Shown: piece by piece, positions 2,495 to 52,198 of the stretch
Numbering within the stretch: the stretch's first letter is position 1
Layout of the letters: every line of letters begins with the position of its first letter
Source: an uncultured Oceanisphaera sp.
GTDB lineage: Bacteria; Pseudomonadota; Gammaproteobacteria; Enterobacterales; Aeromonadaceae
DNA: 64,000 nucleotides
Direction of reading: 5' to 3'
Assembly: GCF_947495715.1 (NCBI RefSeq)
Contig: NZ_CANLZU010000004.1
Span: 62,001-126,000 of the forward strand
Translations under genes and position numbers: made by a program
Notes under the pieces: model-generated
Database searches by the model: none
The model's input: only the letters and a program-made list of their open reading frames with translations
What the model was told of the DNA's origin: nothing

Positions 2495-2496
2495 GC

Positions 2497-37151: not shown

Positions 37152-37418
37152 TTACCTTAACTGACTGTCCTTACTGCCGCGCCGGTTGACGCCGTCGACG
37201 GCCGTGCGCTGCTTTTCCTGCTCGGCCTGACACCCGATGCACAGCCGTACCCCCGGCACCGCCTTGCGCCGCGCCTCGGGAATGGGGGTGTCACATTCCT
37301 CGCAGTGGCTCAGACTCTCGCCGGCACTCAGCCGGCTGCGGGCATCCTGTACCGCGTCTTCCACACTGGCGTCTATCTGATCCTGCACGGCGCCGTCTCG
37401 TGACCATCCTCCTGCCAT
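37152..37418 (-). CDS. DksA/TraR-type zinc-finger protein (YbiI-like)
   Basis: Short DksA/TraR-family protein, 88 residues, the same length as enterobacterial YbiI. The four-Cys zinc finger is CEEC (residues about 38-41) and CIGC (about 62-65), with the typical IPEARRKAVPGVRLC between and the family tail NRRGSKDSQLR. Start chosen at 37418 (MAGGWSRDGAV) because GGAGA lies 8 bases upstream; an in-frame ATG at 37451 would add 11 non-conserved residues. Lacks the coiled-coil and DxxDxA of DksA, so direct RNA polymerase action is uncertain. Confidence 0.9.
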   Translation of the reverse strand: MAGGWSRDGAVQDQIDASVEDAVQDARSRLSAGESLSHCEECDTPIPEARRKAVPGVRLCIGCQAEQEKQRTAVDGVNRRGSKDSQLR

Positions 37419-37603
37419 GGTGTTCTCCTGAATAATACGTTTTTTAGCCATGATACTTCACTTTTCATAAACCCGGGCACGGGGAAAGTCAATCAGGAAT
37501 GATGGCTGGTTAATTAGGTTTCAAATGAAGACTTTGTTAGCATAAATGACTGCCAGATGTTGCATAATTGATATTTATAGGCTGTCTGCCTTGTCAGGTT
37601 CGG

Positions 37604-37617
37604 TTGATCTGCATCAA
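37604..37617 (+). promoter_or_regulatory. FNR/ANR box, molybdoenzyme operon 1
   Basis: TTGAT CTGC ATCAA: exact match to the FNR consensus TTGAT-N4-ATCAA, 144 bases before the alpha-subunit ATG. Predicts oxygen-limited induction. The rest of the 343-base gap after the zinc-finger gene shows its promoter region and an AT-rich tract (37500-37580). Confidence 0.85.
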
Positions 37618-37761
37618 TCATCAATGAACTTTAGTGCTTGGACGGAGATTAGCCAATGACGTTCGATTAATGGCGGTGTTATTTTCCTCCCGCAACCCAA
37701 AGCGACCAAGACCGGGCTGGCTTGAGTCCGTACACAAGTCGTCGCACAGGAGGACATCAGA

Positions 37762-40530
37762 ATGCACATGTCTAAGATCAAGCGCCGTGATTTTCTCAAG
37801 GGACTGGGCCTGACCGGCGCCGGACTCGTGATAAGCAGCAAAAGCTGGGCGCTCAACCGCCTGGAGCCCATTTCCGACACCCTTGCTACCGAGTATCCCT
37901 ACCGCAGTTGGGAAGACCTGTACCGCAAGGAATGGGACTGGGATTATATCGGCCACGCCGCCCACTGCATCAACTGCATGGGCAACTGCGCCTGGAATGT
38001 TTACGTCAAGGATGGTCTGGTGGTGCGCGAAGAGCAGATCGCCAAGTATCCCCAGGTCAACCCCAAGGTGCCCGACGCCAACCCCCGGGGTTGCCAGAAG
38101 GGCGCCATTCACTCCACCGCCATGTATGAAGCCGACCGGCTGCGCTACCCGCTCAAGCGGGCCGGCGAGCGGGGCGAAGGCAAGTGGCAGCGTATTTCCT
38201 GGGATCAGGCCACCGAAGAAATTGCCGACAAGATCATCGACATTTTCGTTAAATATGGTCCCGGCAAGCTCAAGACCCATCAGGGCTCGGGCAACCAGAC
38301 CATGGTGCGCCACTCCGGTCCCAACCGCTTTGCGTCCCTGGTAGGGGGCATTCAGCTCGACGGCTTCACCGTGGTGGGCGATCTCAACACCGGTGCCCAT
38401 CTGACCTACGGCAACCCGCTGGAGAGTTTTACCTCCGATGCCTGGTTTGACGCCGACTATATTCTGATGGGCATGATCAACCCCAACGCTACCCGTATTC
38501 CCGACGCTCACTATATCTGGGAGGCCAAGTACAACGGCGCCCGCATTACCAGCACGGCCCCGGATCACAACCCCAGCGCCATTCATACCGACTTGTGGAT
38601 GCCCATCAATCAGGGCTCGGATCCGTTTCTCGCCATGTCGTTTGTCAACGTCATCATCGAGGAAAAGCTGTTCAAACCCGAGTTCATGAAGGAGCAGACC
38701 GATCTGCCGATGCTGGTACGTATCGACAACGGCAAGCTGCTGCGCGAGGCGGATCTGGTGGAAGGCGGCTCCATCGAGGTGTTCTATCACTGGGATCTGG
38801 CCACCCAACAGGCGGTCAAGGCCAAGGGCTCCATGGGCAGTGACGACAAGACCCTCAAGCTCGGCAACGTCGACCCGGCCATCGAGGGCGAGTTCGAGGT
38901 CGATGGCATCAAGGTCACCACCGTATTCGAGCAGGTGAAGCAGGAAGCCGCCAAGTACCGTCCGGAAGACACCTTCAAGCTGACCAATATTCACCCGGAC
39001 GTGGTGCGTCAGGAAGCCCGCTATCTGGCGAAAGCCCGCAAGGCCATCGTCATGCTGGGCTACATTACCTCCGGCTACTCCAACTGTATTCATATCGGCC
39101 GGGCCTACGGGCTGGCGCTGTCGCTGACCGGCCACTGTGGTCGTACCGGCGGCCTGGATACCTCCTGGGTGGTGTGGAATCACCCGAAATGGGCCGAGCT
39201 GGCCGAGTTCGGTGACAAGAAACCCCGCTACGAGCCGGGCGGCCTGGGCGAGTTTCTGCGTGGCGGCATGATGGAAGGCGCCCGCGAGCACTTCAACAAC
39301 AAGAAGCTCAAGGAGCGGGTCGGCTTTGATCTCGACGATCTGGATGAAATGATCAAGGAGTCCATCGACGAGGGCTGGATGCCGTATCACGGCGAGATCA
39401 AGGGCATGATCTCGGTGGCCGACAATACCTTCCGCCGCAACAAGTTCGCCAACCGCTATCGCGATGAACACCTGCGCCAGGCCAGCGAGCTGTATGTGAA
39501 TGTCAACGTGCGCATGGACTCCACCGCCGAGTGGGCCGACTATGTGCTGCCGGCGGCGGGCCATTACGAGGCCTGGGATCTGCGTACTCAAGGGTATCAC
39601 CGGTTCTGTAACGTCTTTACCCGCTCGGTACGACCGGTGGGCGAGTCCAAGCCCGACTGGGACATCATGGCGCTGCTCACCCAGAAGATTCAGGAGCGCG
39701 CCATCGCCCGGGGCATTGGTCCCATTCCGGATGGCGATGTCACCCGGGATCTGCACACCATTCACGACGACTTCACCCGCAACGGCGCCCTCAGTACCGA
39801 CCTCGACGTGTTCACCTATATCGTCGAGAACTCGCCGGAATTTGGCGGTGTCAGCGTGAAAGAGGCGGTGGAGCGCGGCTTTATCGTGATGAACGAACAC
39901 GCGGGCACCAACCAGCCGCTGAAGCCGGACGAACCCTACAACCCGTTCACCGCCCAGACCGACGGCAAAAAGCCCTACGACACCCTGACCGGGCGCATCA
40001 CCTTTTATTGTGATCACCCGCGCTTTATGAAACTGGGGGCCACGGTGCCCACGGCGCGGCTCTATGCCGGCCCCGAGACCTCGAACTACCCGCTGCACTT
40101 CTATTCACCCCATGCCCGCTGGGGGGTGCACTCCAACTGGCGCAGCAACAAATATCTGCTGCGGCTGCAACGGGGCGAGCCCAACATCTACATCAACCCG
40201 GGGCTGGCGGCCGAGCGGGGCATCAAGGACGGCGATCGGGTGCGGCTGTTCAACAGCACCGGCGACTTCTTCGCCCAGGCCAAGTTCTATCCCAGCATTC
40301 CGACGCATTCCATCATGATGGAGCACGGCTGGGAGCCCCATCAGTACATTCACAGAAAGCCGATGAACAACGCCATGGCCACCTTTCTGCAGCCGCTGGA
40401 GCTGGTGGGAGGCTGGGGCCACCTGGGCTTTAAATACTGCATGTGGAACGCCAACCAGCTGTTGCACGAATCCAGTTTCGATATCGAGCTGGCCAGGGCG
40501 GAAGACATCGCCGATCCGCGGACCCTTTAA
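37762..40530 (+). CDS. Type II DMSO-reductase-family molybdoenzyme, alpha subunit (copy 1)
   Basis: Catalytic Mo-bis-MGD subunit of 922 residues. A twin-arginine leader KRRDFLKGLGLTGAG sends the folded enzyme to the periplasm. The FS0 cluster ligands follow the type II pattern H71-x3-C75-x3-C79 ... C111 (RGCQKGA), as in NarG, ethylbenzene dehydrogenase, DMS dehydrogenase, and selenate and chlorate reductases. The Mo-ligand Asp region reads SDAWFDADY (D226). Later MGD-binding stretches include DYVLPAAGHYEAWD and YSPHARWGVHSNW. AGGAGG precedes the ATG by 8 bases. Followed by beta, chaperone and gamma genes. The substrate cannot be read; FNR control favours an anaerobic role. A close paralogue is at 46487-49258. 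Confidence 0.92.
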   Translation: MHMSKIKRRDFLKGLGLTGAGLVISSKSWALNRLEPISDTLATEYPYRSWEDLYRKEWDWDYIGHAAHCINCMGNCAWNVYVKDGLVVREEQIAKYPQVNPKVPDANPRGCQKGAIHSTAMYEADRLRYPLKRAGERGEGKWQRISWDQATEEIADKIIDIFVKYGPGKLKTHQGSGNQTMVRHSGPNRFASLVGGIQLDGFTVVGDLNTGAHLTYGNPLESFTSDAWFDADYILMGMINPNATRIPDAHYIWEAKYNGARITSTAPDHNPSAIHTDLWMPINQGSDPFLAMSFVNVIIEEKLFKPEFMKEQTDLPMLVRIDNGKLLREADLVEGGSIEVFYHWDLATQQAVKAKGSMGSDDKTLKLGNVDPAIEGEFEVDGIKVTTVFEQVKQEAAKYRPEDTFKLTNIHPDVVRQEARYLAKARKAIVMLGYITSGYSNCIHIGRAYGLALSLTGHCGRTGGLDTSWVVWNHPKWAELAEFGDKKPRYEPGGLGEFLRGGMMEGAREHFNNKKLKERVGFDLDDLDEMIKESIDEGWMPYHGEIKGMISVADNTFRRNKFANRYRDEHLRQASELYVNVNVRMDSTAEWADYVLPAAGHYEAWDLRTQGYHRFCNVFTRSVRPVGESKPDWDIMALLTQKIQERAIARGIGPIPDGDVTRDLHTIHDDFTRNGALSTDLDVFTYIVENSPEFGGVSVKEAVERGFIVMNEHAGTNQPLKPDEPYNPFTAQTDGKKPYDTLTGRITFYCDHPRFMKLGATVPTARLYAGPETSNYPLHFYSPHARWGVHSNWRSNKYLLRLQRGEPNIYINPGLAAERGIKDGDRVRLFNSTGDFFAQAKFYPSIPTHSIMMEHGWEPHQYIHRKPMNNAMATFLQPLELVGGWGHLGFKYCMWNANQLLHESSFDIELARAEDIADPRTL

Positions 40531-40542
40531 CAGGAGACACTC

Positions 40543-41523
40543 ATGGCTGTAAAAAGACAACTCAGCATGGTGCTGGATCTGAACAAATGTATCGGCTGCC
40601 AGACCTGCACTTCGGCCTGCAAGCTGATGTGGACCAACCGCAACGGTCGCGAATTCATGTACTGGAACAACGTGGAGTCCCAGCCCGGGCTGGGCTACCC
40701 CCGCGATTACCAGAACATGGGCGGCGGTTTCGATAAAGACGGTGCCCTGCGCCTGGGTCGCCAGCCCAGCCAGGAAGACTACGGTATTCCCTGGGAATAC
40801 AACTATGAAGAAGCGCTGATGACCGGTACCGATCCCTGGCTGCGCCCCAACGTCAAACCCACCTGGGGCGCCAACTGGGACGAAGACAGAGGCGAGGGTG
40901 ACTACCCCAACAGCTACTACTTCTACCTGCCCAGGCTGTGCAACCACTGCGCCAACCCGGGCTGCTTGGCGGCCTGTACCCGCAATGCCATCTACAAGCG
41001 GCAGGAAGACGGCATCGTGCTGGTGGATCAGGAGCGCTGCCGGGGCTATCGTTACTGCGTTAACGCCTGTCCCTACAAGAAAATCTACTTCAACGAGCAG
41101 ATCTCCAAGTCGGAGAAGTGCATCTTCTGTTATCCGCGCATCGAAAAGGGTCTGGCCAACGCCTGTGCCCGCCAGTGCGTGGGTCGCATTCGCTGGGTCG
41201 GCTACCGGGACGACAAGGAAGGGCCCATTCACAAGCTGGTGGAGCAATTCAAGGTGGCGCTGCCGCTGCACGCCGAGTGGGGCACCCAGCCCAATGTGTT
41301 CTATGTGCCGCCGTTGTCGTCACCCAAATACGCCTCCGATGGCCGCACGCTCGAAGAGCCGCGCATACCGCTGGACTACCTGGAAAGCCTGTTCGGCCCC
41401 CGGGTGGGCGAGGTGCTGGAAACGCTCAAGACCGAGCGCCAGGCCAAGGCCGAAGGACGCGAAAGCGCCCTGATGGACCTGCTGATCGGCTATAAGCATG
41501 CCGACATGTTCAAGCTGAGCTGA
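40543..41523 (+). CDS. Type II molybdoenzyme iron-sulfur beta subunit (copy 1)
   Basis: Electron-transfer subunit of 326 residues with four Cys clusters: CIGCQTCTSAC, CNHCANPGCLAAC, CRGYRYCVNAC and CIFC...CARQC. In the third, Tyr takes the place of a Cys, as Trp does in NarH, so three [4Fe-4S] and one [3Fe-4S] clusters are expected. No signal peptide: the family crosses the membrane with the alpha subunit through Tat. Starts 12 bases after alpha with its own GGAG site. The C-terminus is the family-type region PLDYLESLFG. Confidence 0.93.
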   Translation: MAVKRQLSMVLDLNKCIGCQTCTSACKLMWTNRNGREFMYWNNVESQPGLGYPRDYQNMGGGFDKDGALRLGRQPSQEDYGIPWEYNYEEALMTGTDPWLRPNVKPTWGANWDEDRGEGDYPNSYYFYLPRLCNHCANPGCLAACTRNAIYKRQEDGIVLVDQERCRGYRYCVNACPYKKIYFNEQISKSEKCIFCYPRIEKGLANACARQCVGRIRWVGYRDDKEGPIHKLVEQFKVALPLHAEWGTQPNVFYVPPLSSPKYASDGRTLEEPRIPLDYLESLFGPRVGEVLETLKTERQAKAEGRESALMDLLIGYKHADMFKLS

Positions 41524-41537
41524 GGGAGAGGTTATTG

Positions 41538-42257
41538 ATGCACACCCAATCCGTTACCACAGAACAGGTATTGGCCCGGGGCAGCGTCTTTCGGCTGGCC
41601 GCGGCCATGCTGGATTACCCGCTGGCCGAAACCTGGCAGGCCCTGCAGGAGGGCCGCATGGCACAAGCGCTGAGTCAGGCCATGGCGGTACAGGGCGAGG
41701 CCGCCTGGCCCGCCTTGCCGGCAAGCAGTGATCTGAAGGCACTGGAGGTGGGTTACATGGCCACCTTTGTACAGGGGCGGCGCGGCCGGCCCCAGGTGCC
41801 CCTGGTGGCCAGCGCCTACGACACCTTGCTGGCCGGTGATACGCCGGGCCGCTACCTGCTCAATGTGCAGGCCTTTTACCGGCATTTCGGGCTCAAGGCC
41901 GCCACCGAGGACGAAGGTCATGTCGACGAGCCGGATCACCTGGTGACCATGCTCGAGTTCTGCGCCCTGCTGTGCCATCTGGAGCTGCAGGAACTGGAGA
42001 GCGGGCGGGACGCCGGTTCGCCCCGGCGGGCGCTGCGGGACTTTCTGACCCGCTACCTGGTGCCGATGGCTACCAGCCTGCGTGAGCGTTTTAACCGGGA
42101 AGCCGATCAGGGTCTGGATGCCAACCTGGCCTGCCTGGTGCAGCGTTTGCCCGACTGGGCCGACCGGCAACGGGAGATACTGGAACATCAGGTTGGCCCC
42201 TGTCCGCAGGCGGGTCAGCGCGCCGCGGCCGGCGACGCCGAAGGCATGTGGGATTAA
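41538..42257 (+). CDS. TorD-like assembly chaperone of the type II molybdoenzyme (copy 1)
   Basis: All-helical cytosolic chaperone, 239 residues, TorD/NarJ superfamily (type II delta subunit). Such proteins bind the alpha apoprotein and its Tat leader until the cofactors are inserted. Visible: AAMLDYPLAETWQAL, EVGYMATF, FYRHFGLKA and the E..DEPDHLVTMLEFCALL motif (as EPDHL in the family). ATG 41538 follows GGGAGAGG; an upstream TTG is in frame. Not a structural subunit. Confidence 0.9.
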   Translation: MHTQSVTTEQVLARGSVFRLAAAMLDYPLAETWQALQEGRMAQALSQAMAVQGEAAWPALPASSDLKALEVGYMATFVQGRRGRPQVPLVASAYDTLLAGDTPGRYLLNVQAFYRHFGLKAATEDEGHVDEPDHLVTMLEFCALLCHLELQELESGRDAGSPRRALRDFLTRYLVPMATSLRERFNREADQGLDANLACLVQRLPDWADRQREILEHQVGPCPQAGQRAAAGDAEGMWD

Positions 42258-42270
42258 TGAGGAACATATC

Positions 42271-43050
42271 ATGAAAGCGATTACGTCCATTTACCGAGCC
42301 ATGCTGCTGGGGCTGGCCATGACCAGCGCCGCTGCCCTGGCCGATCACAGCGAAATGAACCCCAATGTCATCGAGGTGAAACCGGGGGACACCGTCAAGG
42401 TGGGGCGCATTCCCGGCACCATCTATTTGCGCAGCCAGAACGACCCGGACGATCTGATCTGGGACCGGCTGCCCATGTACCGTGTTGGCCTGTATGCGGC
42501 GCCGCCGGTGCATCAGTCGGTCAGGCTGCGCTTTGAACAGGAGCAGGCCTTTGAGGCCAAGCACATGTACTTTCAGGTAGCCCGCTCCGACGAACGTTTT
42601 TACCTGCGACTACGCTGGAAGGATGGCACCGAAGACAGGGCCACCACCGTGGATGATTTTCGTGACGGCGTGGCGGTACAGTTTGCGCTCGAGGGGGCCG
42701 ACACCTCCTACATGATGGGCTCGGGGCCGGACAAGCCGGTCAATATCTGGTACTGGCGTTCCGACCGGGAGCAGATAGAAGACCTGGCCGCCGGCGGTTA
42801 CGGCAGCACCACGCGTTTGCCGGAGCAGGCCATTGACGGTGCCAGCGCCTGGGTGGCCGAGGAAATTCAACAGGATAGCGAATGGCACGTGGTGATGTCC
42901 CGGCCGCTGAAGGTCAAGGGCGAACACCAGGTCGATCTGGAGCGTAAGCAGATTCCCATGGTGTTTGCGGTCTGGGAGGGCCACCACAATCAGCGCGACG
43001 GTGACAAGCGGGTGACACCCAACTGGATCCTGCTGGACAACAACTACTGA
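42271..43050 (+). CDS. Heme-b gamma subunit of the type II molybdoenzyme (copy 1)
   Basis: Periplasmic heme-binding subunit, 259 residues. Sec signal peptide MKAITSIYRAMLLGLAMTSAAALA. The family fold (EbdC/DdhC-like) binds one heme b through Met and Lys; candidates are Met in SYMMGSGPDKPVNIWYW and Lys in SRPLKVKG. It takes electrons from, or delivers them to, the beta subunit and a soluble c-type cytochrome. Follows the chaperone by 13 bases. No membrane anchor gene follows, so the enzyme is a soluble periplasmic heterotrimer. Confidence 0.9.
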   Translation: MKAITSIYRAMLLGLAMTSAAALADHSEMNPNVIEVKPGDTVKVGRIPGTIYLRSQNDPDDLIWDRLPMYRVGLYAAPPVHQSVRLRFEQEQAFEAKHMYFQVARSDERFYLRLRWKDGTEDRATTVDDFRDGVAVQFALEGADTSYMMGSGPDKPVNIWYWRSDREQIEDLAAGGYGSTTRLPEQAIDGASAWVAEEIQQDSEWHVVMSRPLKVKGEHQVDLERKQIPMVFAVWEGHHNQRDGDKRVTPNWILLDNNY

Positions 43051-43072
43051 TACGCAAGGGGAGGAGTTCATC

Positions 43073-44188
43073 ATGACGGTACATCAATTCAACACCGGCC
43101 GGGACGACGAGCTGGCCGTGCGGCCCGCCGACTGCGGCCTGGGCCACGCCTGCCAGTTCTGTCCCAAAGAGCCGGAGTGCACCCTGGACAAGCCCCATCA
43201 CGAAAAGCGGTTGCTGGAGCTGCGCCTCGCTCAAATTGGCCAGATCATTCTGGTGATGGCCAACAAGGGCGGGGTGGGCAAAAGCACCGTCTCGGCCAAC
43301 CTGGCCGCCGGCCTGGCCGCCCGCGGCTTTCGGGTGGGGGTGGCCGATGCGGATATTCACGGTCCCAACCAGAGCCGATTTTTCAACCAGGTGGGCCAGC
43401 GGGTACGGGTGAGCGAGCGGGGGCTCGATACCCTGTCCTGTTTTGGCGACCGCTTGCCGCACCCGGTACAGGTGGGCTCGCTCGCCTTCATGATGGAACG
43501 CGATGACACTCCCATCGTCTGGCGCGATGCCTACAAGCACGACTTCATGCATCATCTGATCGGCAGCTTTGACTGGGGGCCGCTGGATTTTCTGGTGGTC
43601 GACATGCCGCCGGGCACCGGTAACGAGCTGATCACCCTGAGCGATCTGCTGGAGCAGCAGGCGGTGGCGGCGGTGATTGCCACCACCCCTCAGCAGGTGG
43701 CGCTGATGGACAGCCTCAAGGCCATTCGTTTCTGCCAGGAGCGGGGCCTGCCGCTGCTTGGGGTGGTGGAGAACATGGCCGGGGTAACCTGCCCGCACTG
43801 CGGCGGCGAGTTTCAGTTGTTCCCCAGAGCCCACCTGGCCGAGGCGCTGGATGAGCTGGGGGTGGAATCATTGGCCAGCATTCCGCTGTCGCCGCTGCTG
43901 GCCATGGCCTCCGACTCGGGGGCGCCGGTCACCATGGATCAGCCCGAGAGCCCCGAGGCCCGGGCGTTTTCTCCTGTGGTGGATGCCTGCATCGAACACG
44001 CCCGGCAGGAAAGCCGGCAGGCTGCGAGCGAAGAGTTACAGGCACTGGTAACAGCAAACGCCGAGGAGCTGGAAGCGCTGCTCAGCGATGTGCCCGAGGA
44101 AGACAGGGCCCAGGCTCGGCGTGACCTTGAAGCCCTGCTTGCCGGCGAGCACGACCGGCTGAATCCTGAACGCAACGACGACCGCTAA
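43073..44188 (+). CDS. Mrp/Nbp35-like P-loop ATPase with N-terminal four-Cys motif
   Basis: Fe-S-carrier-type ATPase of the Mrp/ApbC/Nbp35 (MinD/ParA superfamily) group, 371 residues. The deviant Walker A KGGVGKST is at about residue 65, switch II DMPPGTG at about 180, and the C-terminal CPHC (Cys240, Cys243) matches the CxxC that binds a bridging cluster in dimers. Unusually, it has a Cys motif before the ATPase, C21-x5-C27-x2-C30-x5-C36, resembling the N-terminal cluster site of eukaryotic Nbp35. An acidic helical tail of about 60 residues follows the domain. Start has a GGGGAGGAG site. Lies 23 bases after gamma, so it is part of the operon; a role in Fe-S or FS0 assembly of this enzyme is inferred. 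Confidence 0.85.
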   Translation: MTVHQFNTGRDDELAVRPADCGLGHACQFCPKEPECTLDKPHHEKRLLELRLAQIGQIILVMANKGGVGKSTVSANLAAGLAARGFRVGVADADIHGPNQSRFFNQVGQRVRVSERGLDTLSCFGDRLPHPVQVGSLAFMMERDDTPIVWRDAYKHDFMHHLIGSFDWGPLDFLVVDMPPGTGNELITLSDLLEQQAVAAVIATTPQQVALMDSLKAIRFCQERGLPLLGVVENMAGVTCPHCGGEFQLFPRAHLAEALDELGVESLASIPLSPLLAMASDSGAPVTMDQPESPEARAFSPVVDACIEHARQESRQAASEELQALVTANAEELEALLSDVPEEDRAQARRDLEALLAGEHDRLNPERNDDR

Positions 44189-44210
44189 CCATGCACACGA
44201 GGAGAGCGCC

Positions 44211-46076
44211 ATGAGCTCAGCACACAATCCTTCCCGCCGTCATTTCTTTCGCCAGCTGGCCAGCCGGGTAGAAGAGGCCGCGCCGGTGGCCATGCCCTGG
44301 CGACCGGTGCTGGAAGCCCATGCCGGTGATGGCGACGTACTCTGGTCCGGCTGGGCCGGCGCGGGCGAGGTGTTCGTGGTCGGTGACGAGGGTCGCATAC
44401 TGCACTTTGACGCCGACCGGCCGGGCTGGCACGAGCAGGCCACGCCGGTGCCGCTGCCCCTGCACGGCATCTGGGGTACCCAGGCCGACAGCCTGCACGC
44501 GGTGGGCTGGATGGGCTGTATTCTGCATTATGACGGCGAGCAGTGGCGGCACGTGCGGGGGGGCGTGGTCAACGACGACACCGGTCGCTACGCCCCCTGC
44601 GAGGAAAACACCCCCTTGTTTGCCATCGATGGCAATGTCCAGGGTCAGGCCTGGGCGGTGGGCGACGAGGGATGCATTCTGCATTTTAACGGCGAGGGCT
44701 GGCAGCCCGAGGCCTCGGGTACCCGCATCAACCTGCGGGCGGTGGCCTGTGCCCCAAACGGCCGGGTATACGCCGCGGGCGGCGAGGGCACCCTGCTGCG
44801 GCGCGAGCCAAACGGCGGCTGGCAACCGATGGACTGCCCGCTAAGTACCGGTTTTCATGCGCTGCTGGTACTGAACGACGACGAACTGCTGCTGGCGGGC
44901 GGGCGCTACTTCGTGGATCAGGGCGGCTTTCGTGGCGAGCTGGTGCATTACCACCACGGCGAATTTCACAACCTGGCCCACGAGTCGGGTCTGCCCCGAT
45001 TGCGGGCGCTGCGCGCCTACAAGGACGGCGTGCTGCTGGTGGGCGACAAGGGCCATTTACTGTATTTGCACAACAACAAGGTGCACCGGCTGGCCTGCAA
45101 CACCCATCACGATCTGATGGACATCGTTACCCTGGGCTCGGGCGAGGCGCTGGTGGTGGGCGATTTCGGTACCCTGATGACCGCCGCTCCCGATTTTGAA
45201 CAGGCGCTGGCCGTTCCCCACCGGGAAGTGGCGGCGCAAAGCCGGTGGGAGGTCATGGAAAGTCCTACCCGGCGTCAGCTGTGGGGGCTGTGGCAGGCCC
45301 ACGACGGCCGGGTGTATGCCTGCGGCGACACCGGCACCGTGCTGCGTCTGGACGGCGAACAGTGGGTAGCGTTGCCGGCCCCCGATGAACAACTGGCGGT
45401 GCACTGCCTGTGGAGCTGCGAGGGCAGCGGCCTGCTGGCCGGCGGTCAGGAAGGGCGCATTTACCGCTTCAACGGCGAGCAGTGGCAACTGCACTTCGAT
45501 CTGCACCTGCACACCACCATACTGGCGATGTGGGGCACCGGGCCCGACTGCATCTATGCGGTGGGTGATGAGGGGCTGGTGCTGCATTATGATGGCCTGG
45601 GCTGGCAGCGGCTGGCCAGCGGCACCAGCTCGGCGCTGTACGATCTCTGGGGTCTGGATGCCCGGCACCTGCTGGCGGTGGGCGACTTCGGGCTGGCGCT
45701 GCGCTACAACGGCGAGCAATGGAAGGATTTCAACACCGGCACCGAGCAGTTTATTTACAGCGTCTGGGGCCGGGGATTGAACGACATCTACGCGGTGGGC
45801 CTGTCGGGGACCGTGGTGCATTTCAACGGTCAGCGCTGGCATACCATGCCCACCCGGCTGCAGCAGGACCTGCTGTCGATCTCCGGCAACCCGGCCGGCG
45901 AGGTGTTTGCCGTGGGTGGGCAGGGCACTGTGCTGCGGCTGGAGCAGGGCCAGTGGCTGCGGGAAACCGCGCCCACCGAGGTCAGCCTGCGGGCGGTGTG
46001 TGCCACCCGGGACGGCACCGTGTATGCGGTGGGCGACCAGGGCTGCATTCTGCGGCGCAGTCCGAAGCCGGAGTAA
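44211..46076 (+). CDS. Beta-propeller protein with 14 YAVGDxG repeats
   Basis: Protein of 621 residues built of some 14 tandem repeats of about 40 residues with the pattern (V/I)YAVGDxGxIL(H/R)(F/Y)NGExW, from residue about 48 to the end; likely one or two seven-bladed propellers of the YCF48/Kelch-like kind. The N-terminus SRRHFFRQLASRVEE resembles a twin-arginine motif but no hydrophobic segment follows, so it is not an obvious export signal; it may be cytosolic or be recruited through another Tat substrate. Last gene of operon 1, 22 bases after the ATPase, before a terminator. Function unknown: scaffold or assembly factor for the molybdoenzyme is the best guess. The YCF48 assembly factor of photosystem II is a loose analogy. 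Confidence 0.8.
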   Translation: MSSAHNPSRRHFFRQLASRVEEAAPVAMPWRPVLEAHAGDGDVLWSGWAGAGEVFVVGDEGRILHFDADRPGWHEQATPVPLPLHGIWGTQADSLHAVGWMGCILHYDGEQWRHVRGGVVNDDTGRYAPCEENTPLFAIDGNVQGQAWAVGDEGCILHFNGEGWQPEASGTRINLRAVACAPNGRVYAAGGEGTLLRREPNGGWQPMDCPLSTGFHALLVLNDDELLLAGGRYFVDQGGFRGELVHYHHGEFHNLAHESGLPRLRALRAYKDGVLLVGDKGHLLYLHNNKVHRLACNTHHDLMDIVTLGSGEALVVGDFGTLMTAAPDFEQALAVPHREVAAQSRWEVMESPTRRQLWGLWQAHDGRVYACGDTGTVLRLDGEQWVALPAPDEQLAVHCLWSCEGSGLLAGGQEGRIYRFNGEQWQLHFDLHLHTTILAMWGTGPDCIYAVGDEGLVLHYDGLGWQRLASGTSSALYDLWGLDARHLLAVGDFGLALRYNGEQWKDFNTGTEQFIYSVWGRGLNDIYAVGLSGTVVHFNGQRWHTMPTRLQQDLLSISGNPAGEVFAVGGQGTVLRLEQGQWLRETAPTEVSLRAVCATRDGTVYAVGDQGCILRRSPKPE

Positions 46077-46107
46077 AACGGTCACCATCACCTTGCAATC
46101 GAACTGA

Positions 46108-46134
46108 AAAACGGGCCCTTGAGGCCCGTTTTTT
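46108..46134 (+). terminator. Terminator of molybdoenzyme operon 1
   Basis: AAAACGGGCC, CTTGA, GGCCCGTTTT, then TTGTTTTA; 32 bases after the propeller stop. Its right half reappears, degraded, at about 52128-52150 in the relic of operon 2. The following 46140-46330 stretch becomes AT-rich with no gene. Confidence 0.92.
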
Positions 46135-46330
46135 GTTTTAGGTGCTGCTTGTGTGCGATGAATGCAGGCTTCTGGCGGGCTGTACACGAGAGCAAAATAT
46201 TTTTGCTACCGCATCGCTACCCACGCCATAAACCAGATGCAAAAGCTCCAAATGAGTTTTAAATCAGCATAAAAACCGGTTTTAATCGGTATTGTAGATG
46301 CTTATTTTGTGCCGATTTTTATCGCTTTGA

Positions 46331-46344
46331 TTGATCTGAATCAA
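46331..46344 (+). promoter_or_regulatory. FNR/ANR box, molybdoenzyme operon 2
   Basis: TTGAT CTGA ATCAA, exact FNR consensus, 142 bases before the alpha ATG, nearly the same spacing as in operon 1. The leader downstream (for example GGTGTTA and CAAAAGCGA) is also shared. Confidence 0.85.
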
Positions 46345-46486
46345 TCAGAAGTCAATTGCCCTGCTCGATATGGTCATTAAATGACCTATGTTTAATGATG
46401 GTGTTACTTTTTGAGCAAAACCAAAAGCGAACCGTTCGAACAGGCTGGCAGCAGATGAACAGGCGGTCGCACAGGAGGGCATAACA

Positions 46487-49258
46487 ATGCACATGTCTAA
46501 ACTCAAGCGTCGCGACTTCCTCAAGGGGCTGGGGCTGACCAGTGCCGGCATCGTGTTTAGCCGTCAAAGCTGGGCGCTTAATCGTCTGGAGCCTATCTCC
46601 GACACCCTCGCCAGTGAATACCCCTACCGAAACTGGGAAGATCTGTATCGCAACGAGTGGGACTGGGATCATATCGGTCATGCCGCCCACTGCATCAACT
46701 GCATGGGTAACTGCGCCTGGAACGTCTATGTGAAAGACGGCCTGGTGATCCGTGAAGAGCAGGTCGCCAAGTATCCCCAGGTCAACCCCAAGGTGCCCGA
46801 CGCCAATCCCCGCGGTTGCCAGAAAGGCGCCATTCACTCCACCGCCATGTACGAAGCCGACCGGCTGCGCCATCCGCTCAAGCGGGCCGGCGAGCGGGGC
46901 GAGGGCAAATGGCAGCGTATTTCCTGGGATCAGGCCACCGAGGAAATCGCCGAAAAAATCATCGATATATTTGAGAAATACGGCCCCGGCAAGCTCAAGA
47001 CCCACCAGGGGTCGGGCAACCAGACCATGGTGCGCCAGTCCGGCCCCAACCGCTTTGCCTCGCTGGTGGGCGGCATTCAGCTAGACGGTTTTACCGTGGT
47101 GGGTGATCTGAACACCGGTGCTCACCTTGCCTACGGCAACCCGCTGGAGAGTTTTACCTCCGACGCCTGGTTTGACGCCGACTACATCATGCTCGGCATG
47201 ATCAACCCCAACGCCACCCGTATTCCCGATGCTCACTACATCTGGGAAGCCAAATACAACGGCGCGCGCATTACCAGTACCGCCCCGGATTACAACCCCA
47301 GCTCCATTCACACCGACCTGTGGATGCCGATTCAGCAGGGCTCAGATCCCTTCCTCGCCCTGTCGTTTGTCAACGTGATTATCGAGGAAAAGCTGTTCAA
47401 GCCCGACTTCATGAAGGAGCAGACCGATCTGCCGATGCTGGTGCGCACCGACAACGGCAAGCTGCTGCGGGAAAGCGACCTGGTCGAGGGTGGTTCCGAG
47501 GAAGTGTTCTACCACTGGGATCTGACCACCCAGCAGGCGGTGAAGGCCAAGGGGTCGATGGGCAGTGACGACAAGGATCTGAAACTGGGTGAGGTGGACC
47601 CGGCGCTGGAGGGCGAGTTTGACGTCAACGGCATCGAAGTCACTACCGTATTCGAGCAGGTGAAAAAGGAAGCGGCCAAATATCCGCCGGAAAAGACCCA
47701 GCAGCAAACCGGGCTGCATCCGGACGTGGTGCGCCAGGAAGCCCGCCATCTGGCGGCGGCCAAAAAAGCCATCATCATGCTGGGCTACATCACCTCCAGC
47801 TACTCCAACTGTCTCTATATTGGCTGGGGGTATGCCCTGGCCCTGGCGCTGACCGGCCACGGCGGGCGTACCGGCGGCCTCGACACCTCCTGGGTGGTGT
47901 GGAACCACCCGCGCTGGACCGAGCTTGCCACCTTTGATGGCAAGAAGTCGGCCCGCTACGAGCCGGGTGGCCTGGGTGAAGTACTGCGGGGCGACATGAT
48001 GGGCGGCATTCGCAAGCACTTCAACAACAAGAAACTCAAGGAGCGGGTCGGCTTCGACATCGACGAGATGGAAGCCATGATGCAGGAGTCCATCGACGAG
48101 GGCTGGATGCCGTACTACGGCGAAATCAAGGGCATGATCTCGATAGCCGACAACACCTTTCGCCGCAACAAGCTGGCCGAACATTACCGTGATGAACACC
48201 TGCGCCAGGCCAGCGAGCTGTATGTCAACGTCAACACGCGCATGGACTCCACCGCCGAGTGGGCCGACTACGTGCTGCCGGCGGCCAGTCACTACGAAGC
48301 CTGGGATTTAAGAACCCAGGGTTATCATCGCTTCTGCAACGTTTTTACCGAGTCGGTGCCGCCGGTGGGCGAGTCCAAGCCCGACTGGGACATCATGGCG
48401 CTGCTCACCCAAAAGATTCAGGAACGGGCCATCGCCCGTGGTATCGGTCCCATTCAGGATGGTGACGTTACGCGGGATCTGCACACCATTCACGACGACT
48501 ACACCATGAACGGCAAGCTGAATACCGCGCTGGATGCCTGCCGTTACATCGTGGACAACTCGCCGGAATTTGGCGGCGTCAGCCTGGAGGAGGCGGGCGA
48601 ACGCGGCTTTATCGTGATGAACGAACAGGCGGGCCTGAACCAGCCGCTGAAGCCGGACGAACCCTATAACCCCTTTACCGCGCAAACCGATGACAAAAAG
48701 CCCTATGAAACCCTGACCGGGCGCATCACCTTCTATGTCGACCATCCCCGGTTTGAGCAGCTCAAATCCACCGTGCCCACGGCGCGGCTCTATGCCGGCC
48801 CGGAGGCCTCCGACTATCCGCTGCATTTCTATTCGCCCCATGCCCGCTGGGGCATCCACTCCAACTGGCGCAGCAACAAATACATGCTGCGGTTGCAGCG
48901 GGGCGAGCCCAATATCTACATCAATCCCAAGCTGGCGGCCGAGCGCGGCATCAAGGACGGCGACAGGGTCAAGCTGTTCAACGGTAACGGCGAGTTCTTT
49001 GCCCAGGCCAAGTTCTACCCCAGCATTCCGGCCAACTCCATCATGATGGAGCACGGCTGGGAGCCGCATCAATACATCCATCGCAAGCCGATGAACAACT
49101 CCCATGCCACCCTGCTGCAGCCGCTTGAGCTGGTGGGGGGCTGGGGGCATCTCAAGTTTATCTATGCCAAGTGGAACGCCAATCAGGTTATCCATGAAAG
49201 CAGCTACGACATCGCGCTGGCCACGGCGGATGAAATCAGTGACCCACGGGTCCTATAA
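46487..49258 (+). CDS. Type II DMSO-reductase-family molybdoenzyme, alpha subunit (copy 2)
   Basis: 923-residue paralogue of the alpha subunit at 37762, colinear over the whole length. It has the same Tat leader (KRRDFLKGLGLTSAG), H-x3-C-x3-C...RGCQKGA cluster ligands and SDAWFDADY segment. Most residues are identical by eye; differences concentrate in the leader, in residues about 395-415 (KYPPEKTQQQTGLH versus KYRPEDTFKLTNIH), around the entry MLGYITSSYSNCLYIGWGYA (versus SGYSNCIHIGRAYG) and in the C-terminal 30 residues. The enzyme appears intact; changed pocket-lining residues might mean a different substrate or merely drift. Confidence 0.92.
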   Translation: MHMSKLKRRDFLKGLGLTSAGIVFSRQSWALNRLEPISDTLASEYPYRNWEDLYRNEWDWDHIGHAAHCINCMGNCAWNVYVKDGLVIREEQVAKYPQVNPKVPDANPRGCQKGAIHSTAMYEADRLRHPLKRAGERGEGKWQRISWDQATEEIAEKIIDIFEKYGPGKLKTHQGSGNQTMVRQSGPNRFASLVGGIQLDGFTVVGDLNTGAHLAYGNPLESFTSDAWFDADYIMLGMINPNATRIPDAHYIWEAKYNGARITSTAPDYNPSSIHTDLWMPIQQGSDPFLALSFVNVIIEEKLFKPDFMKEQTDLPMLVRTDNGKLLRESDLVEGGSEEVFYHWDLTTQQAVKAKGSMGSDDKDLKLGEVDPALEGEFDVNGIEVTTVFEQVKKEAAKYPPEKTQQQTGLHPDVVRQEARHLAAAKKAIIMLGYITSSYSNCLYIGWGYALALALTGHGGRTGGLDTSWVVWNHPRWTELATFDGKKSARYEPGGLGEVLRGDMMGGIRKHFNNKKLKERVGFDIDEMEAMMQESIDEGWMPYYGEIKGMISIADNTFRRNKLAEHYRDEHLRQASELYVNVNTRMDSTAEWADYVLPAASHYEAWDLRTQGYHRFCNVFTESVPPVGESKPDWDIMALLTQKIQERAIARGIGPIQDGDVTRDLHTIHDDYTMNGKLNTALDACRYIVDNSPEFGGVSLEEAGERGFIVMNEQAGLNQPLKPDEPYNPFTAQTDDKKPYETLTGRITFYVDHPRFEQLKSTVPTARLYAGPEASDYPLHFYSPHARWGIHSNWRSNKYMLRLQRGEPNIYINPKLAAERGIKDGDRVKLFNGNGEFFAQAKFYPSIPANSIMMEHGWEPHQYIHRKPMNNSHATLLQPLELVGGWGHLKFIYAKWNANQVIHESSYDIALATADEISDPRVL

Positions 49259-49270
49259 GAGGAGACCGTC

Positions 49271-50251
49271 ATGGCTGTCAAACGACAACTCAGCATGGTG
49301 CTGGATCTGAACAAGTGTATCGGTTGCCATACCTGCTCCACGGCCTGCAAGCTGATGTGGACCAACCGCAACGGCCGCGAATTCATGTACTGGAACAACG
49401 TGGAAACCATGCCGGGCGAAGGCTACCCCCGGGACTACCAGAACATGGGCGGCGGCTTCGATGCCGACGGTGCCCTGCGCCTGGGCAGACAGCCCAGCCA
49501 GGAAGACTACGGTATTCCCTGGGAATACAACTATGAAGAAGCGCTGATGACCGGCACCGACCCCTGGCTGCGCCCCAACGTCAAACCCACCTGGGGCGCC
49601 AACTGGGACGAAGACGAAGGCGAGGGCGATTACCCCAACAGCTACTACTTCTACCTGCCACGGCTGTGTAACCATTGCTCCAACCCGGGCTGCCTGGCGG
49701 CCTGTACCCGTAACGCCATCTACAAGCGGCAGGAAGACGGCATCGTACTGGTGGATCAGGAGCGCTGCCGGGGCTATCGCTACTGCGTTAACGCCTGTCC
49801 CTACAAGAAGGTGTACTTCAACGAACAGATCTCCAAGTCGGAGAAGTGCATCTTCTGCTATCCGCGCATCGAAAAGGGCCTGCCCACCGCCTGTGCCCAG
49901 CAGTGTGTAGGGCGTATTCGCTGGATTGGTTATCTCGATGACGAGGCGGGCCCCATCCATTTGCTGGTGAACAAGTACAAGGTGGCGCTGCCGCTGCACG
50001 CCGAGTGGGGCACCCAGCCCAATGTGTTTTATGTGCCGCCGATGTCGCCGCCCAAATACGGCCCCGACGGCAAGGCGCTGAAAGAATCGCGCATACCGCT
50101 GGACTACCTGGAAAGCCTGTTCGGCAAGCGAGTGGGTGAGGTACTGGAAATGCTTGGTGCCGAGCGCCAGGCCAAGGCCGAGGGCCGGGACAGCGAACTG
50201 ATGGATACGCTGATTGGCTACAAACACGCCGAGATGTTCAAACTCAGCTGA
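49271..50251 (+). CDS. Type II molybdoenzyme iron-sulfur beta subunit (copy 2)
   Basis: 326 residues, same length as the copy at 40543 and with all four Cys clusters, including CRGYRYCVNAC. Differences are small: CIGCHTCSTAC in cluster 1, KKVYFNEQI, and the C-terminal region (KALKESRIPLDYLESLFGKR). GGAG site 8 bases before the ATG. No signal of decay. It is expected to pair with the copy 2 alpha subunit, but subunit exchange between copies looks possible because the contact surfaces are so alike. Confidence 0.93.
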   Translation: MAVKRQLSMVLDLNKCIGCHTCSTACKLMWTNRNGREFMYWNNVETMPGEGYPRDYQNMGGGFDADGALRLGRQPSQEDYGIPWEYNYEEALMTGTDPWLRPNVKPTWGANWDEDEGEGDYPNSYYFYLPRLCNHCSNPGCLAACTRNAIYKRQEDGIVLVDQERCRGYRYCVNACPYKKVYFNEQISKSEKCIFCYPRIEKGLPTACAQQCVGRIRWIGYLDDEAGPIHLLVNKYKVALPLHAEWGTQPNVFYVPPMSPPKYGPDGKALKESRIPLDYLESLFGKRVGEVLEMLGAERQAKAEGRDSELMDTLIGYKHAEMFKLS

Positions 50252-50266
50252 ACGGGGAGTGAGCAG

Positions 50267-51001
50267 ATGAACGGAATATCAATGCCCCCCCGGCGTGTGG
50301 ATGCGGTGATTGCCCGAGGCACAGTGTTTCGGCTGGCCGCCGCCATGCTGGACTATCCGCTGGCCGAAACCCAGCAGGTGCTCGAGCAGGGGCGTCTGTC
50401 TCAGGCGCTGAATGCGGCCATGCAGGCACTGGGCGAGGCCCCCTGGCCCGAGCTGCCGGCCAGCTCTGATCTGTGTGCACTGGAGGTGGGCTACATGGCC
50501 ACCTTTGCCCATGGCCGGCACGGCAAGCCCCGGGTGCCATTGGTGGCCAGCGCCTACGAACCGTTGCTGGCCGGTGAAACGCCGGGCAGCTTCATGCTCA
50601 ATGTGCAGGCGTTTTATCGCCATTTCGGCCTCAAGGCGGCGACCGATGACGAAGGGCATATCGACGAGCCGGACCATCTGGTCACCATGCTCGAATTTTG
50701 CGCCCTGCTCTGTCATCTGGAAGAGCAGGCTGCAAGCAAGCAGCGCGATGCCTCGCCCTATCAGCGGGCGCTGCGGGACTTTATGGCCCGTTACCTTATT
50801 CCGCTGCTGAGTGCCTTGCGCACCCGTCTTGCCGGCGAAGGGGACCCGGGGCTGGATGCCGGCCTGGCCTATCTGGTGCAGCGCCTGCCGGACTGGGCGT
50901 CAGGCCAGCGGCACCGCCTGGAGAATCAGGTCGGCCCGTGCCCGGCACCGGGCGCGAGCCGCCACACGGCAAGCACCGAGCCCCAGAATCTGTGGGATTA
51001 G
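50267..51001 (+). CDS. TorD-like assembly chaperone (copy 2)
   Basis: 244-residue paralogue of the chaperone at 41538. Conserved blocks: RGTVFRLAAAMLDYPLAETQQVLEQG, ALEVGYMATF, NVQAFYRHFGLKAATDDEGH and DEPDHLVTMLEFCALLCHLE. More diverged than the alpha and beta copies, mainly in the N-terminal ten residues and the last 60. Start at 50267 (MNGISMPPRR) follows GGGAG. Intact. Confidence 0.9.
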   Translation: MNGISMPPRRVDAVIARGTVFRLAAAMLDYPLAETQQVLEQGRLSQALNAAMQALGEAPWPELPASSDLCALEVGYMATFAHGRHGKPRVPLVASAYEPLLAGETPGSFMLNVQAFYRHFGLKAATDDEGHIDEPDHLVTMLEFCALLCHLEEQAASKQRDASPYQRALRDFMARYLIPLLSALRTRLAGEGDPGLDAGLAYLVQRLPDWASGQRHRLENQVGPCPAPGASRHTASTEPQNLWD

Positions 51002-51024
51002 GCATGACCCAAGAGGAACCCGTT

Positions 51025-51807
51025 ATGAGAGTCAATCTGTCCATTTACCGCGCCGTTCTGCTGGGGCTGGCGATGACCACCGGTGCCGCCCAGGCCGATC
51101 ACCCCGAACTCAACCCCAACGTGACCGATGTGCATTCGGGCGATACCGTCAAGGTGGCGCGCATTCCCGGCACCATCTACCTGCGCACCCAGAACGACCC
51201 GGACGATTTGATCTGGGATCGGCTGCCCGTTTACCGCACCGAGCTGTATTCGGCGCCGCCGGTGCATGCGTCCGTGATCTTGCGTTTCGATGAGGATACG
51301 GCGCTTGAGCCCAAGCATCTGTATTTTCAGGTAGCTCGCTCCGATGAGCGCTTCTATATGCGGTTACGCTGGAAGGACGCTACCGAAGACAGGGGCACCA
51401 CCGTCGACCGTTTTCGTGACGGCGTGGCGGTGCAATATGCCATCAAGGGCCCCGACACCTCCTTCATGATGGGCTCGGGTCCCGACAAGCCGGTCAACAT
51501 CTGGTACTGGCAGTCAGGTCAGGAGCAGGTCGACAACCTGGCCGCCGGCGGTTACGGCAGTACCACCCGGCTGCCCGAGCAAATTGTGGCCGGGGCCAGC
51601 TCCTATATCACCGACGAGATCGTTCAGGACAACCAGTGGCATGTGGTGATGTCCCGGCCGCTGAAGGTGGAGGGCGAGCATCAGGTGGATCTTTCCCGCG
51701 ACAGCATTCCGGTGGTGTTTGCCCTGTGGGAAGGGCACCATGATCAGCGTGACGGCGACAAGCGGGTCTCTCCCAACTGGATCCTGCTGGACAACAGCAA
51801 GGGTTAA
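51025..51807 (+). CDS. Heme-b gamma subunit of the type II molybdoenzyme (copy 2)
   Basis: 260 residues, colinear with the gene at 42271. Sec signal MRVNLSIYRAVLLGLAMTTGAAQA; Met in SFMMGSGPDKPVNIWYW and Lys in SRPLKVEG retained as heme-ligand candidates. Frame is open further upstream in the chaperone, but ATG 51025 has AGAGGA before it and gives the signal peptide. Intact; last complete gene of operon 2. Confidence 0.9.
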   Translation: MRVNLSIYRAVLLGLAMTTGAAQADHPELNPNVTDVHSGDTVKVARIPGTIYLRTQNDPDDLIWDRLPVYRTELYSAPPVHASVILRFDEDTALEPKHLYFQVARSDERFYMRLRWKDATEDRGTTVDRFRDGVAVQYAIKGPDTSFMMGSGPDKPVNIWYWQSGQEQVDNLAAGGYGSTTRLPEQIVAGASSYITDEIVQDNQWHVVMSRPLKVEGEHQVDLSRDSIPVVFALWEGHHDQRDGDKRVSPNWILLDNSKG

Positions 51808-51829
51808 TACGCTCGCCCAAGAGTAGTTG

Positions 51830-52198
51830 ATGATGTCAGTATCCCGATTTACCCCCGGTGCCCCCGATGAGCAGGATCCGCTGGCGATGAGGCCCGCCGA
51901 CTGCAACCGGGGTCATGCCTGCCAGTTTTGCCCCCTGGAGCCGGAATGCGGCCTCGACAAGCCGCACCACGAGAAGCGGCTGCTGGAAAAGCGACTGGCA
52001 CAAATTGGCCAGATCATTCTGGTGATGTCCAACAAGGGCGGGGTCGGCAAAAGTACGGTCAGCGCCAACCTGGCCAACCTGGCCGCCGGGCTGGCGGCGA
52101 TGGCGACGTGCTCTGGTCCGGCTGGGCCATCGAGGGCCGTTTTTATGTTAGGAGGTGGTGTTGTGCGGCTGAGGCAGGCAAGACGCGTTTACCGGTGA
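51830..52198 (+). pseudogene. Truncated Mrp/Nbp35-like ATPase fused to remnants of the propeller gene
   Basis: The first 80 or so residues match the ATPase at 43073 (four-Cys motif CNRGHACQFC...C, Walker A KGGVGKST, VSANLA), with a 9-base duplication (ANLANLA). At about 52096 the sequence switches to bases matching 44327-44357 inside the propeller gene (GGCGACGT.CTCTGGTCCGGCTGGGCC), out of frame, and at about 52128 to sequence resembling 46116-46165, i.e. the operon 1 terminator half and its flank. The product would lack every motif after Walker A. Two deletions at GC-rich micro-homologies removed about 290 ATPase residues and nearly all of the propeller gene. Confidence 0.8.

Follow-up and report, generated by a model that had tools for sequence, protein, structure and literature searches.

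Two type II molybdoenzyme operons lie head to tail

We analysed a 64,000-nucleotide stretch of DNA, referred to here as the window, from an uncultured Oceanisphaera sp. (184-kb contig NZ_CANLZU010000004.1, positions 62001 to 126000). It carries two alpha-beta-delta-gamma gene sets for type II molybdoenzymes, arranged head to tail (37762-43050 and 46487-51807), with all frames open. The two catalytic alpha subunits are 86% identical (792 of 923 residues) and belong to one clade with the dimethyl sulfide (DMS) dehydrogenase subunit DdhA and with an alpha subunit encoded near chlorite dismutase (cld). The alpha of copy 2 keeps the consensus of its subclade, and that of copy 1 has diverged beside the active-site loop. 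We use Oceanimonas as a working label for the GTDB genus of the window's genome, which includes Oceanimonas marisflavi. The window's own genome is G000; related genomes carry G numbers and loci L numbers. The features of the two operons are as follows.

37604..37617, + strand: FNR-type site TTGATCTGCATCAA, exact match, 158 bp before alpha of copy 1
37762..40530, + strand: alpha (molybdopterin catalytic subunit) of copy 1, diverged form; 922 aa; TIGR03479 over cut-off
40543..41523, + strand: beta (Fe-S subunit) of copy 1; 326 aa; TIGR03478 over cut-off
41538..42257, + strand: delta (TorD/NarJ-like assembly chaperone) of copy 1; 239 aa; TIGR03482 E 9.5e-36, below the curated cut-off; PF02613 over cut-off
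42271..43050, + strand: gamma (heme b subunit) of copy 1; 259 aa; TIGR03477 and PF09459 over cut-off; aligns to EbdC (2ivf_C)
43073..44188, + strand: Mrp/NBP35-like P-loop NTPase (Fe-S carrier family) of copy 1; PF10609 E 1.5e-71
44211..46076, + strand: beta-propeller accessory protein (YCF48/tectonin-like repeats) of copy 1; weak Pfam propeller matches; conserved place in the operon
46105..46135, + strand: intrinsic-terminator-like stem and T run between the operons; 13 pairs, T-rich tail
46331..46344, + strand: FNR-type site TTGATCTGAATCAA, exact match, 156 bp before alpha of copy 2
46487..49258, + strand: alpha of copy 2, subclade consensus form; 923 aa; TIGR03479 over cut-off; no private substitutions
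49271..50251, + strand: beta of copy 2; 326 aa; TIGR03478 over cut-off
50267..51001, + strand: delta of copy 2; 244 aa; TIGR03482 E 3.6e-39, below the curated cut-off
51025..51807, + strand: gamma of copy 2; 260 aa; TIGR03477 over cut-off; start placed by homology
51822..52128, + strand: remnant in copy 2 of the NTPase (51822-52075) and propeller (52092-52128) genes, from blastn to copy 2 of G009

The initial annotation of this DNA described alpha, beta, chaperone and gamma genes that occur twice in the same order, with near-equal lengths and both structural sets intact. Protein lengths of 922/923, 326/326, 239/244 and 259/260 residues bear this out. All eight frames are open, and the alpha, beta and gamma subunits exceed the curated cut-offs for the type II family (TIGR03479, 1213 and 1236 bits, cut-off 985; TIGR03478, 583 and 576 bits, cut-off 481; TIGR03477, 190 and 184 bits, cut-off 170). 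Membership of this family is also supported by D207, H68, C72, C76 and C111, which are invariant in a 26-row alpha alignment; we take the latter four to be the His and Cys ligands of the first Fe-S cluster. Both alphas begin with the twin-arginine motif RRDFLKG.

We surveyed 23 genomes of the genus, including the window's own, at E 1e-100. Three had two alphas, one had a single alpha and 19 had none. G009, a metagenome-assembled genome (MAG) that is 84% complete, has two alphas close together on one contig; these are 97-98% orthologues of those in the window and the gene order is the same. G010 also has two alphas close together on one contig (93-97% orthologues), with the copy-2 type coming first and no delta match at that copy. 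An assembly artefact, which the initial annotation had kept in view, is very unlikely because these two genomes of the same genus also hold two alphas. This, together with the 86% identity of the copies, led us to reject an assembly error.

Both alpha subunits fall in a clade with DdhA

A genome scan with two peptide patterns, with the best 80 of 94 kept, gave 78 loci. In an alpha tree of 63 rows, both window alphas fell in a 54-row clade (SH-like approximate likelihood ratio test, SH-aLRT, 98), apart from seven ClrA1/SerA-like and two haloarchaeal rows. This clade consists of a DdhA sister side of 20 rows (SH-aLRT 82), a subclade of 29 rows that holds the window copies (SH-aLRT 100) and five further rows. 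NarG, PcrA and EbdA were compared by sequence only and were more distant. Although the initial annotation held that neither copy could be assigned from sequence, the tree places both alphas in a single clade with R. (Rhodovulum) sulfidophilum DdhA and the alpha of Stutzerimonas chloritidismutans AW-1.

The DdhA reference was G098. This genome is that of Rhodovulum sulfidophilum DSM 1374, as 3.5 kb of its contig 3 match a plasmid of that strain at 100% identity. G098 has one TIGR03479 match over the cut-off, which is 68.7% identical to the alpha of copy 2 and heads the same six-gene operon. The accessible text of PMC6524544 reports proteins 76% identical to R. sulfidophilum DdhA in DMS-degrading strains of Labrenzia, Oceanicola and Stappia. 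The Stappia and Labrenzia alphas were 76.0 and 75.6% identical to the G098 alpha, in agreement with that figure as given there. We infer from these sequence comparisons that the G098 alpha is DdhA.

The AW-1 alpha is 81-82% identical to the window alphas, and beta is 88-91% identical. On AW-1 contig C41, alpha (1009-3780) and cld (6220-6801) are separated by a transposase gene. The AW-1 delta, gamma, NTPase and propeller genes are on contig C18, and 1641 bp at its end match the start of C41 at 99.8%. We take this alpha to be the purified chlorate reductase of Wolterink 2003, known as the 'group 2' Clr. The available part of PMC9751292 names three chlorate reductases, ClrA1, ClrA2 and ClrA3.

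Other known systems are further away. ClrA1 of Ideonella dechloratans and the SerA type share the type II family and the alpha-beta-delta-gamma order with the window enzymes at approximately 45% identity. By contrast, their loci have no nearby NTPase or propeller gene and their alphas have the motif PDxxSMTGDL with K438 and R447. PcrAB and EbdABC are the closest solved folds, but they are only 32% and 28% identical, respectively. As a separate observation, three genes resembling type II alphas lie on a Chloroflexota contig (L096), with 33-34% identity to copy 2; a fourth, at the end of that contig, is partial (48%).

The complete operon has six genes

The repeated unit had been described as four genes. 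The complete unit has six, namely alpha, beta, delta, gamma, an Mrp/NBP35-like Fe-S carrier NTPase and a beta-propeller protein; copy 1 has all six and copy 2 holds a remnant of the last two. The copy-1 NTPase has N-terminal cysteines at positions 21, 27, 30 and 36 and a CPxC motif at 240-243, and in a 51-row alignment 95% or more of the letters at positions 21, 27, 30, 36, 240 and 243 are Cys. Among its nearest PDB chains are carriers and assembly proteins of Fe-S clusters and, judging from its family, the protein would load Fe-S clusters. It may be dedicated to the molybdoenzyme because another PF10609 gene, with a higher score, lies elsewhere in the host genome. The propeller protein had no match to PDB sequences at E 0.01.

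The remnant in copy 2 matched copy 2 of G009 in blastn at 88% over 254 bp (5' end of the NTPase gene) and at 97% over 37 bp (propeller gene). It sits within a 123-aa open frame (51827-52198) in which pieces of both genes are fused. Therefore, copy 2 once carried the NTPase and propeller genes and lost them by deletion. In G009, copy 2 gives an NTPase match that spans residues 1-364 and a propeller match that runs to the edge of the sequence retrieved.

To count these genes we used operons with enough downstream sequence and matches above 100 bits within 4.5 and 5.5 kb. Of 51 clade operons, 50 had the NTPase gene downstream, the window remnant being included in this count; the sole miss was copy 2 of G010. 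The propeller gene was found in 43 of 49; the misses were the second copies of the window and G010 together with L057, L060, L062 and L063. Outside the clade, the same cuts gave 0 of 27 for the NTPase and 0 of 26 for the propeller. Haloarchaeal operons of the nitrate reductase type carry a more distant P-loop NTPase that lies outside these cuts; the association of type II enzymes with an NTPase of this kind may therefore be older. NTPases in L092 (16473-17096) and L095 (16733-17341) match P0009 at 37-39%, and L008 (13398-14678) has an annotated P-loop NTPase. Beyond the six genes, no neighbour common to most of the close gammaproteobacterial operons was apparent among those examined of the 45 largest neighbour open reading frame families, which include many shadow frames and few families identified by Pfam. 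No paper dealing with these enzymes, or with the NTPase and propeller genes, came to our notice, and 'ddhABDC' returned 0 papers, in a literature coverage that leaves out most subscription journals.

Gate residues and regulatory sites separate the window copies from DdhA

To place the active-site residues we read a HMMER alignment to PcrA. In our reading, D207 corresponds to the Asp ligand D170 of PcrA and G201-F202 to F164-Y165, which puts a glycine at the PcrA gate position F164. W477 corresponds to PcrA W461 with less certainty, as it adjoins alignment gaps. The PDB titles of 5ch7 and 5e7o mention F164 and W461 of PcrA as gate switch and mutant. S438 lies at or next to the position of EbdA K450, a residue that presumably has an active-site role.

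The DdhA sister side has [LA]DIFTDVGD and R438 in 20 of 20 rows. The window copies instead have LDGFTVVGD with S438 (copy 2) or G438 (copy 1). LDGFTVVGD is present in 27 of the 29 rows of the window-copy subclade, the exceptions being AW-1 (LDHVAAVGD) and a Pseudomonas MAG (LDHITAVGD), and the group with this motif was found in Halomonas, Marinobacter, Marinobacterium, Oceanimonas and Pseudomonas relatives. The initial annotation had named placement inside a characterised clade together with identical active-site residues as the outcome that would tell against it; the clade proved to be shared and the residues to be different. A side group (L041-L044 and L051) has LDGFT[VT]VGD with R, F or N at position 438, and this variation suggests that there could be further specificities.

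Regulatory sequences also differ. The motif TTGATNNNNATCAA occurs exactly twice in the window compared with 0.07 expected from shuffles, and the exact FNR-type site before each alpha confirms that both copies stand behind FNR boxes. All seven Oceanimonas copies have a perfect site. The idea that the leader was duplicated along with this site holds for the site itself; leader identity between the copies is only about 61% over 142 aligned bases and 48-52% further upstream. The terminator-like stem between the operons is suggestive only, since shuffles give 1.0 such site per region.

We then counted, in groups set by motif, the alphas that have a site no more than one mismatch away from TTGATNNNNATCAA within 400 bp. 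Such a site was found in 17 of 27 LDGFTVVGD alphas with S or G at 438 (10 of 20 without the seven Oceanimonas copies) versus 1 of 21 with the DdhA motif (Fisher p 5e-5, with relatedness ignored). The counts were 0 of 2 for AW-1-like alphas, 3 of 5 for the side group and 8 of 29 for rows outside the clade. A kinase/response-regulator family lies beside 19 of 19 DdhA-type loci examined versus 1 of 31 others (Colwellia). According to Pfam, L046, L136, L063 and L028 have a hybrid histidine kinase, and two of them, L046 and L136, also have an OmpR-type regulator. In Rhodovulum sulfidophilum DSM 1374, the hybrid sensor kinase and OmpR-type regulator genes (L136, 2488-5696) are divergent from the DdhA operon.

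These data bear on whether both copies could be DMS dehydrogenases (DdhABC) that oxidise DMS to dimethyl sulfoxide and pass electrons via cytochrome c to nitrate or oxygen. Their alphas are 69% identical to the only type II alpha over the cut-off in R. sulfidophilum DSM 1374, where the alpha-beta-delta-gamma order is likewise followed by NTPase and propeller genes, and gate residues F202 and T203 are shared with the DdhA-type rows. However, I201, D204 and R438, which are constant in all sister rows, are replaced here by G, V and S or G, and FNR-type sites stand in place of the adjoining kinase and regulator genes. We consider this explanation unlikely, though still a serious contender.

Gene trees disagree about the history of the pair

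The arrangement had been called a tandem duplication. In a simple tandem duplication the copies would be closest relatives in every gene, which is not what the trees showed. The alpha of copy 2 grouped with two Marinobacterium rows (100/100), and forcing the seven Oceanimonas copies together cost 73 log-likelihood units (approximately unbiased (AU) test, p 0.001). By contrast, the trees of the accessory genes joined the copies. G009 copy 2 grouped with copy 1 for the propeller (100/99) and the NTPase (97/89), and a grouping of copy 2 with Marinobacterium was rejected for both (p 0.005 and 0.04, respectively). Thus, duplication is supported by the NTPase and propeller trees and rejected by the alpha tree. 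In the beta tree, copy 2 of the window and of G009 grouped with Marinobacterium (91/90) and copy 2 of G010 grouped with copy 1. The gamma of G010 copy 2 also lay with the copy-1 gammas.

The signal varied along alpha. Residues 1-130 agreed with a grouping of both copies and Marinobacterium together (100/97). The same constraint gave p 0.033 for residues 131-330, 0.032 for 331-520, 0.12 for 521-720, 0.002 for 721-925 and 0.037 for 131-720 taken as one segment. Of eight residues seen almost only in copy 2 and Marinobacterium, two occur in copy 1 as well, both within the first 90 positions. The copy-1 alpha looks mosaic or accelerated. The simplest reading would be that the whole operon was duplicated in the genus, after which much of the copy-1 alpha was replaced and the accessory genes of copy 2 were lost.

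Alternatively, copy 2 could be a xenolog from a Marinobacterium-like donor that came to lie beside a native copy 1, with no duplication. The alpha and beta groupings described above fit this idea, as do operon positions that differ among related genomes. We keep a wholly foreign copy 2 only as a rival, and a rather improbable one, because the NTPase and propeller trees oppose it; the N-terminal 130 residues of alpha also put all copies together.

The region around the operons is rearranged. In G010, the operons are on the other side of a module of isochorismatase, tripartite ATP-independent periplasmic (TRAP) transporter and hydantoinase genes, and G016 has ATP-binding cassette (ABC) transporter and dksA-like genes without the operon. 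In the window, a small gene for a DksA/TraR-type zinc-finger protein (37152-37451, minus strand) lies upstream of copy 1. DNA like this gene adjoins the ABC transporter genes in G016 and G010, where the operon is not next to it. An isochorismatase-family gene occurs twice in the window (52363-53055 and 56290-56988, 99% identical protein), flanking a TRAP transporter; two or more matches to it were also present in G002, G010, G021 and G003 (two of three partial in G003).

Chlorite dismutase is absent from nearly all clade genomes searched

We searched the clade genomes for cld with PF06778. The search covered 50 handles, two of them in one genome, with L085 and G098 outside it and with some of the genomes being MAGs. 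No match was found in the window's genome. Matches were present in 2 of the 49 clade genomes searched, AW-1 and Tropicimonas, and in none of the other 47, including that of the Pseudomonas MAG with the AW-1-like gate (G053). AW-1-like chlorate respiration is therefore unlikely in this organism. The Tropicimonas cld lies beside genes for a different molybdoenzyme (26% to alpha), a beta-like protein (38%) and an NTPase-like protein (39%), all within L137 1266-7744, on another contig than the ddhA-type operon of that genome.

The AW-1 gate (H201, V202, A203, A204, F434 and L477) is also missing from the window copies. Compared with 27 rows, the AW-1 alpha has ten private substitutions, including those at 201-204, 434 and 477, and these cluster (P 0.002 from column sampling, with the window length chosen after looking). 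Positions 203 and 477 are unchanged in the Pseudomonas MAG.

It is doubtful, then, that both copies are AW-1-type chlorate or bromate reductases working without chlorite dismutase or by co-metabolism. The high identity to an alpha encoded near cld and the FNR-type sites, as expected for an anaerobic reductase, speak for this. In addition, according to the available part of PMC9751292, Cld may be dispensable in certain habitats and part of chlorate reduction is co-metabolic. Against it are the absence of cld from the window's genome and from 47 of the 49 clade genomes searched, the differing gate motifs and W477L, which is private to AW-1.

Copy 1 has diverged beside the active-site loop

The initial annotation proposed that residue changes in alpha fall in a few blocks and could mean divergent substrate use. 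Raw differences between the copies were not significantly clustered (permutation P 0.16). A different picture came from 636 columns that are near-invariant across 23 rows without copy 1. At these columns the four copy-1 sequences have 15 private substitutions, and the three copy-2 sequences, compared with 20 rows, have none. Four of the copy-1 changes (S438G, Y444H, W447R and A450G) are beside the active-site loop and cluster at 438-450 (P 0.010 from sampling columns, with the window length chosen after looking). Clustering is thus seen for the private substitutions and not for the raw differences, and divergent substrate use is supported as a possibility for copy 1.

Of the 54 clade rows, 50 have Trp at position 447; the four copy-1 rows have Arg, as do the nine rows outside the clade, so copy 1 carries the residue of the outside rows. 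We used a predicted copy-1 structure of moderate quality for fold search and secondary structure (mean predicted local distance difference test score, pLDDT, 71, with residues 203-208 and 435-437 below 50). The model was closest to PcrA (TM 0.83) and then to EbdA. In it, residues 439-455 form a helix, so that 444, 447 and 450 are spaced as on one face.

Decay or simple relaxation of the copy-1 alpha, without any new specificity, seems quite improbable. Its private changes include the loss of an otherwise constant Trp, but its cofactor ligand positions are conserved, and four genomes, including the window's, retain this form at 95-98% identity. In one of them (G003) it is the only copy, together with its accessory genes, and so cannot be merely a decaying spare.

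A working model for the pair

We propose, with moderate confidence, the following model. Both operons would encode a periplasmic alpha-beta-gamma molybdoenzyme of the DdhA/AW-1 clade that is exported by the twin-arginine system, with delta as the chaperone of alpha. Electron exchange between heme b and cytochrome c occurs in relatives of these enzymes. The electron path would probably link the Mo site and Fe-S clusters of alpha, the Fe-S clusters of beta, the heme b of gamma and a soluble c-type cytochrome. In the available part of PMC8840923, ethylbenzene dehydrogenase exchanges electrons with cytochrome c via its heme b, and the ligation of this heme is conserved in DMS dehydrogenase. Because copy 2 lost its own accessory genes, the NTPase and propeller of copy 1 most likely aid Fe-S insertion or assembly for both enzymes. 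FNR would turn on both units in anoxia. The six-gene operon is predicted to have been duplicated whole in the Oceanimonas lineage, and most of the copy-1 alpha would then have changed, either because it recombined with a divergent relative or because it evolved fast, altering the helix after the active-site loop. Copy 2 would keep the function of the subclade, taken to be that of a terminal reductase, and the specificity of copy 1 may have shifted or relaxed. We weakly favour an anaerobic terminal reductase for copy 2 and a changed specificity for copy 1. The FNR-type sites and the closeness to AW-1 argue for a reductase, and the kinship with DdhA argues for DMS oxidation. Gene content, clade membership, residue changes, the FNR-type sites and the disagreement of the gene trees are direct observations; the direction of electron flow, the cytochrome partner, the substrate, control by FNR, the roles of the NTPase and propeller and the recombination belong to the model.

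Several points weigh against this model. We know of no measured substrate for any member with the LDGFTVVGD motif. A near-perfect FNR site is missing from 10 of the 27 alphas that share the motif and from the two AW-1-like ones, and FNR control would also fit a DMS dehydrogenase that feeds nitrate respiration. The genome holds NapA-like and TorA-like genes (partial sequences scanned). On the history of the pair, the trees of delta, gamma and beta fit either duplication or separate acquisition. The delta tree placed the Oceanimonas copies together (66/45) and gamma gave p 0.35 for this grouping; copy 2 with Marinobacterium gave p 0.39 for delta and 0.06 for gamma. For beta, the two groupings gave p 0.10 and 0.23, and all nine together gave 0.15. 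Of the four alpha segments tested beyond residue 130, only 721-925 gives a strong rejection and survives correction for multiple tests. The constraint groups were named after the first tree was seen, and for copy 2 only G009 supplied sequences to the NTPase and propeller trees. Faster evolution in one lineage could look like recombination.

A broader proposal is tentative, and we think it somewhat more apt to fail than to hold. According to this, the DdhA/AW-1 clade would hold a third type of enzyme, the LDGFTVVGD group, which would act as a terminal reductase in anoxia under FNR control, and the AW-1 chlorate reductase would have arisen from this group by a few gate mutations and a mobile cld. 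Oceanimonas would have split this type into two specificities by overwriting part of one alpha, and the NTPase and propeller would be a clade-wide maturation pair.

The interesting part of the system is the diverged pair, which is a natural experiment with two copies in one cell. One small clade contains a DMS oxidiser, a cld-linked chlorate reductase and a third active-site type, and a handful of positions around the Mo site separates them. The evolution of specificity, and of chlorate respiration from a cld-free ancestor, is therefore directly testable. There may also be a consequence for counts of ddhA in marine metagenomes. One metagenome study discarded ddhA matches only below 40% identity, according to the accessible text of PMC6524544. 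Because the proteins described here are approximately 69% identical to DdhA, above that cut-off, counts of 'ddhA' in marine metagenomes made with loose identity cut-offs would be too high if this group is not DdhA.

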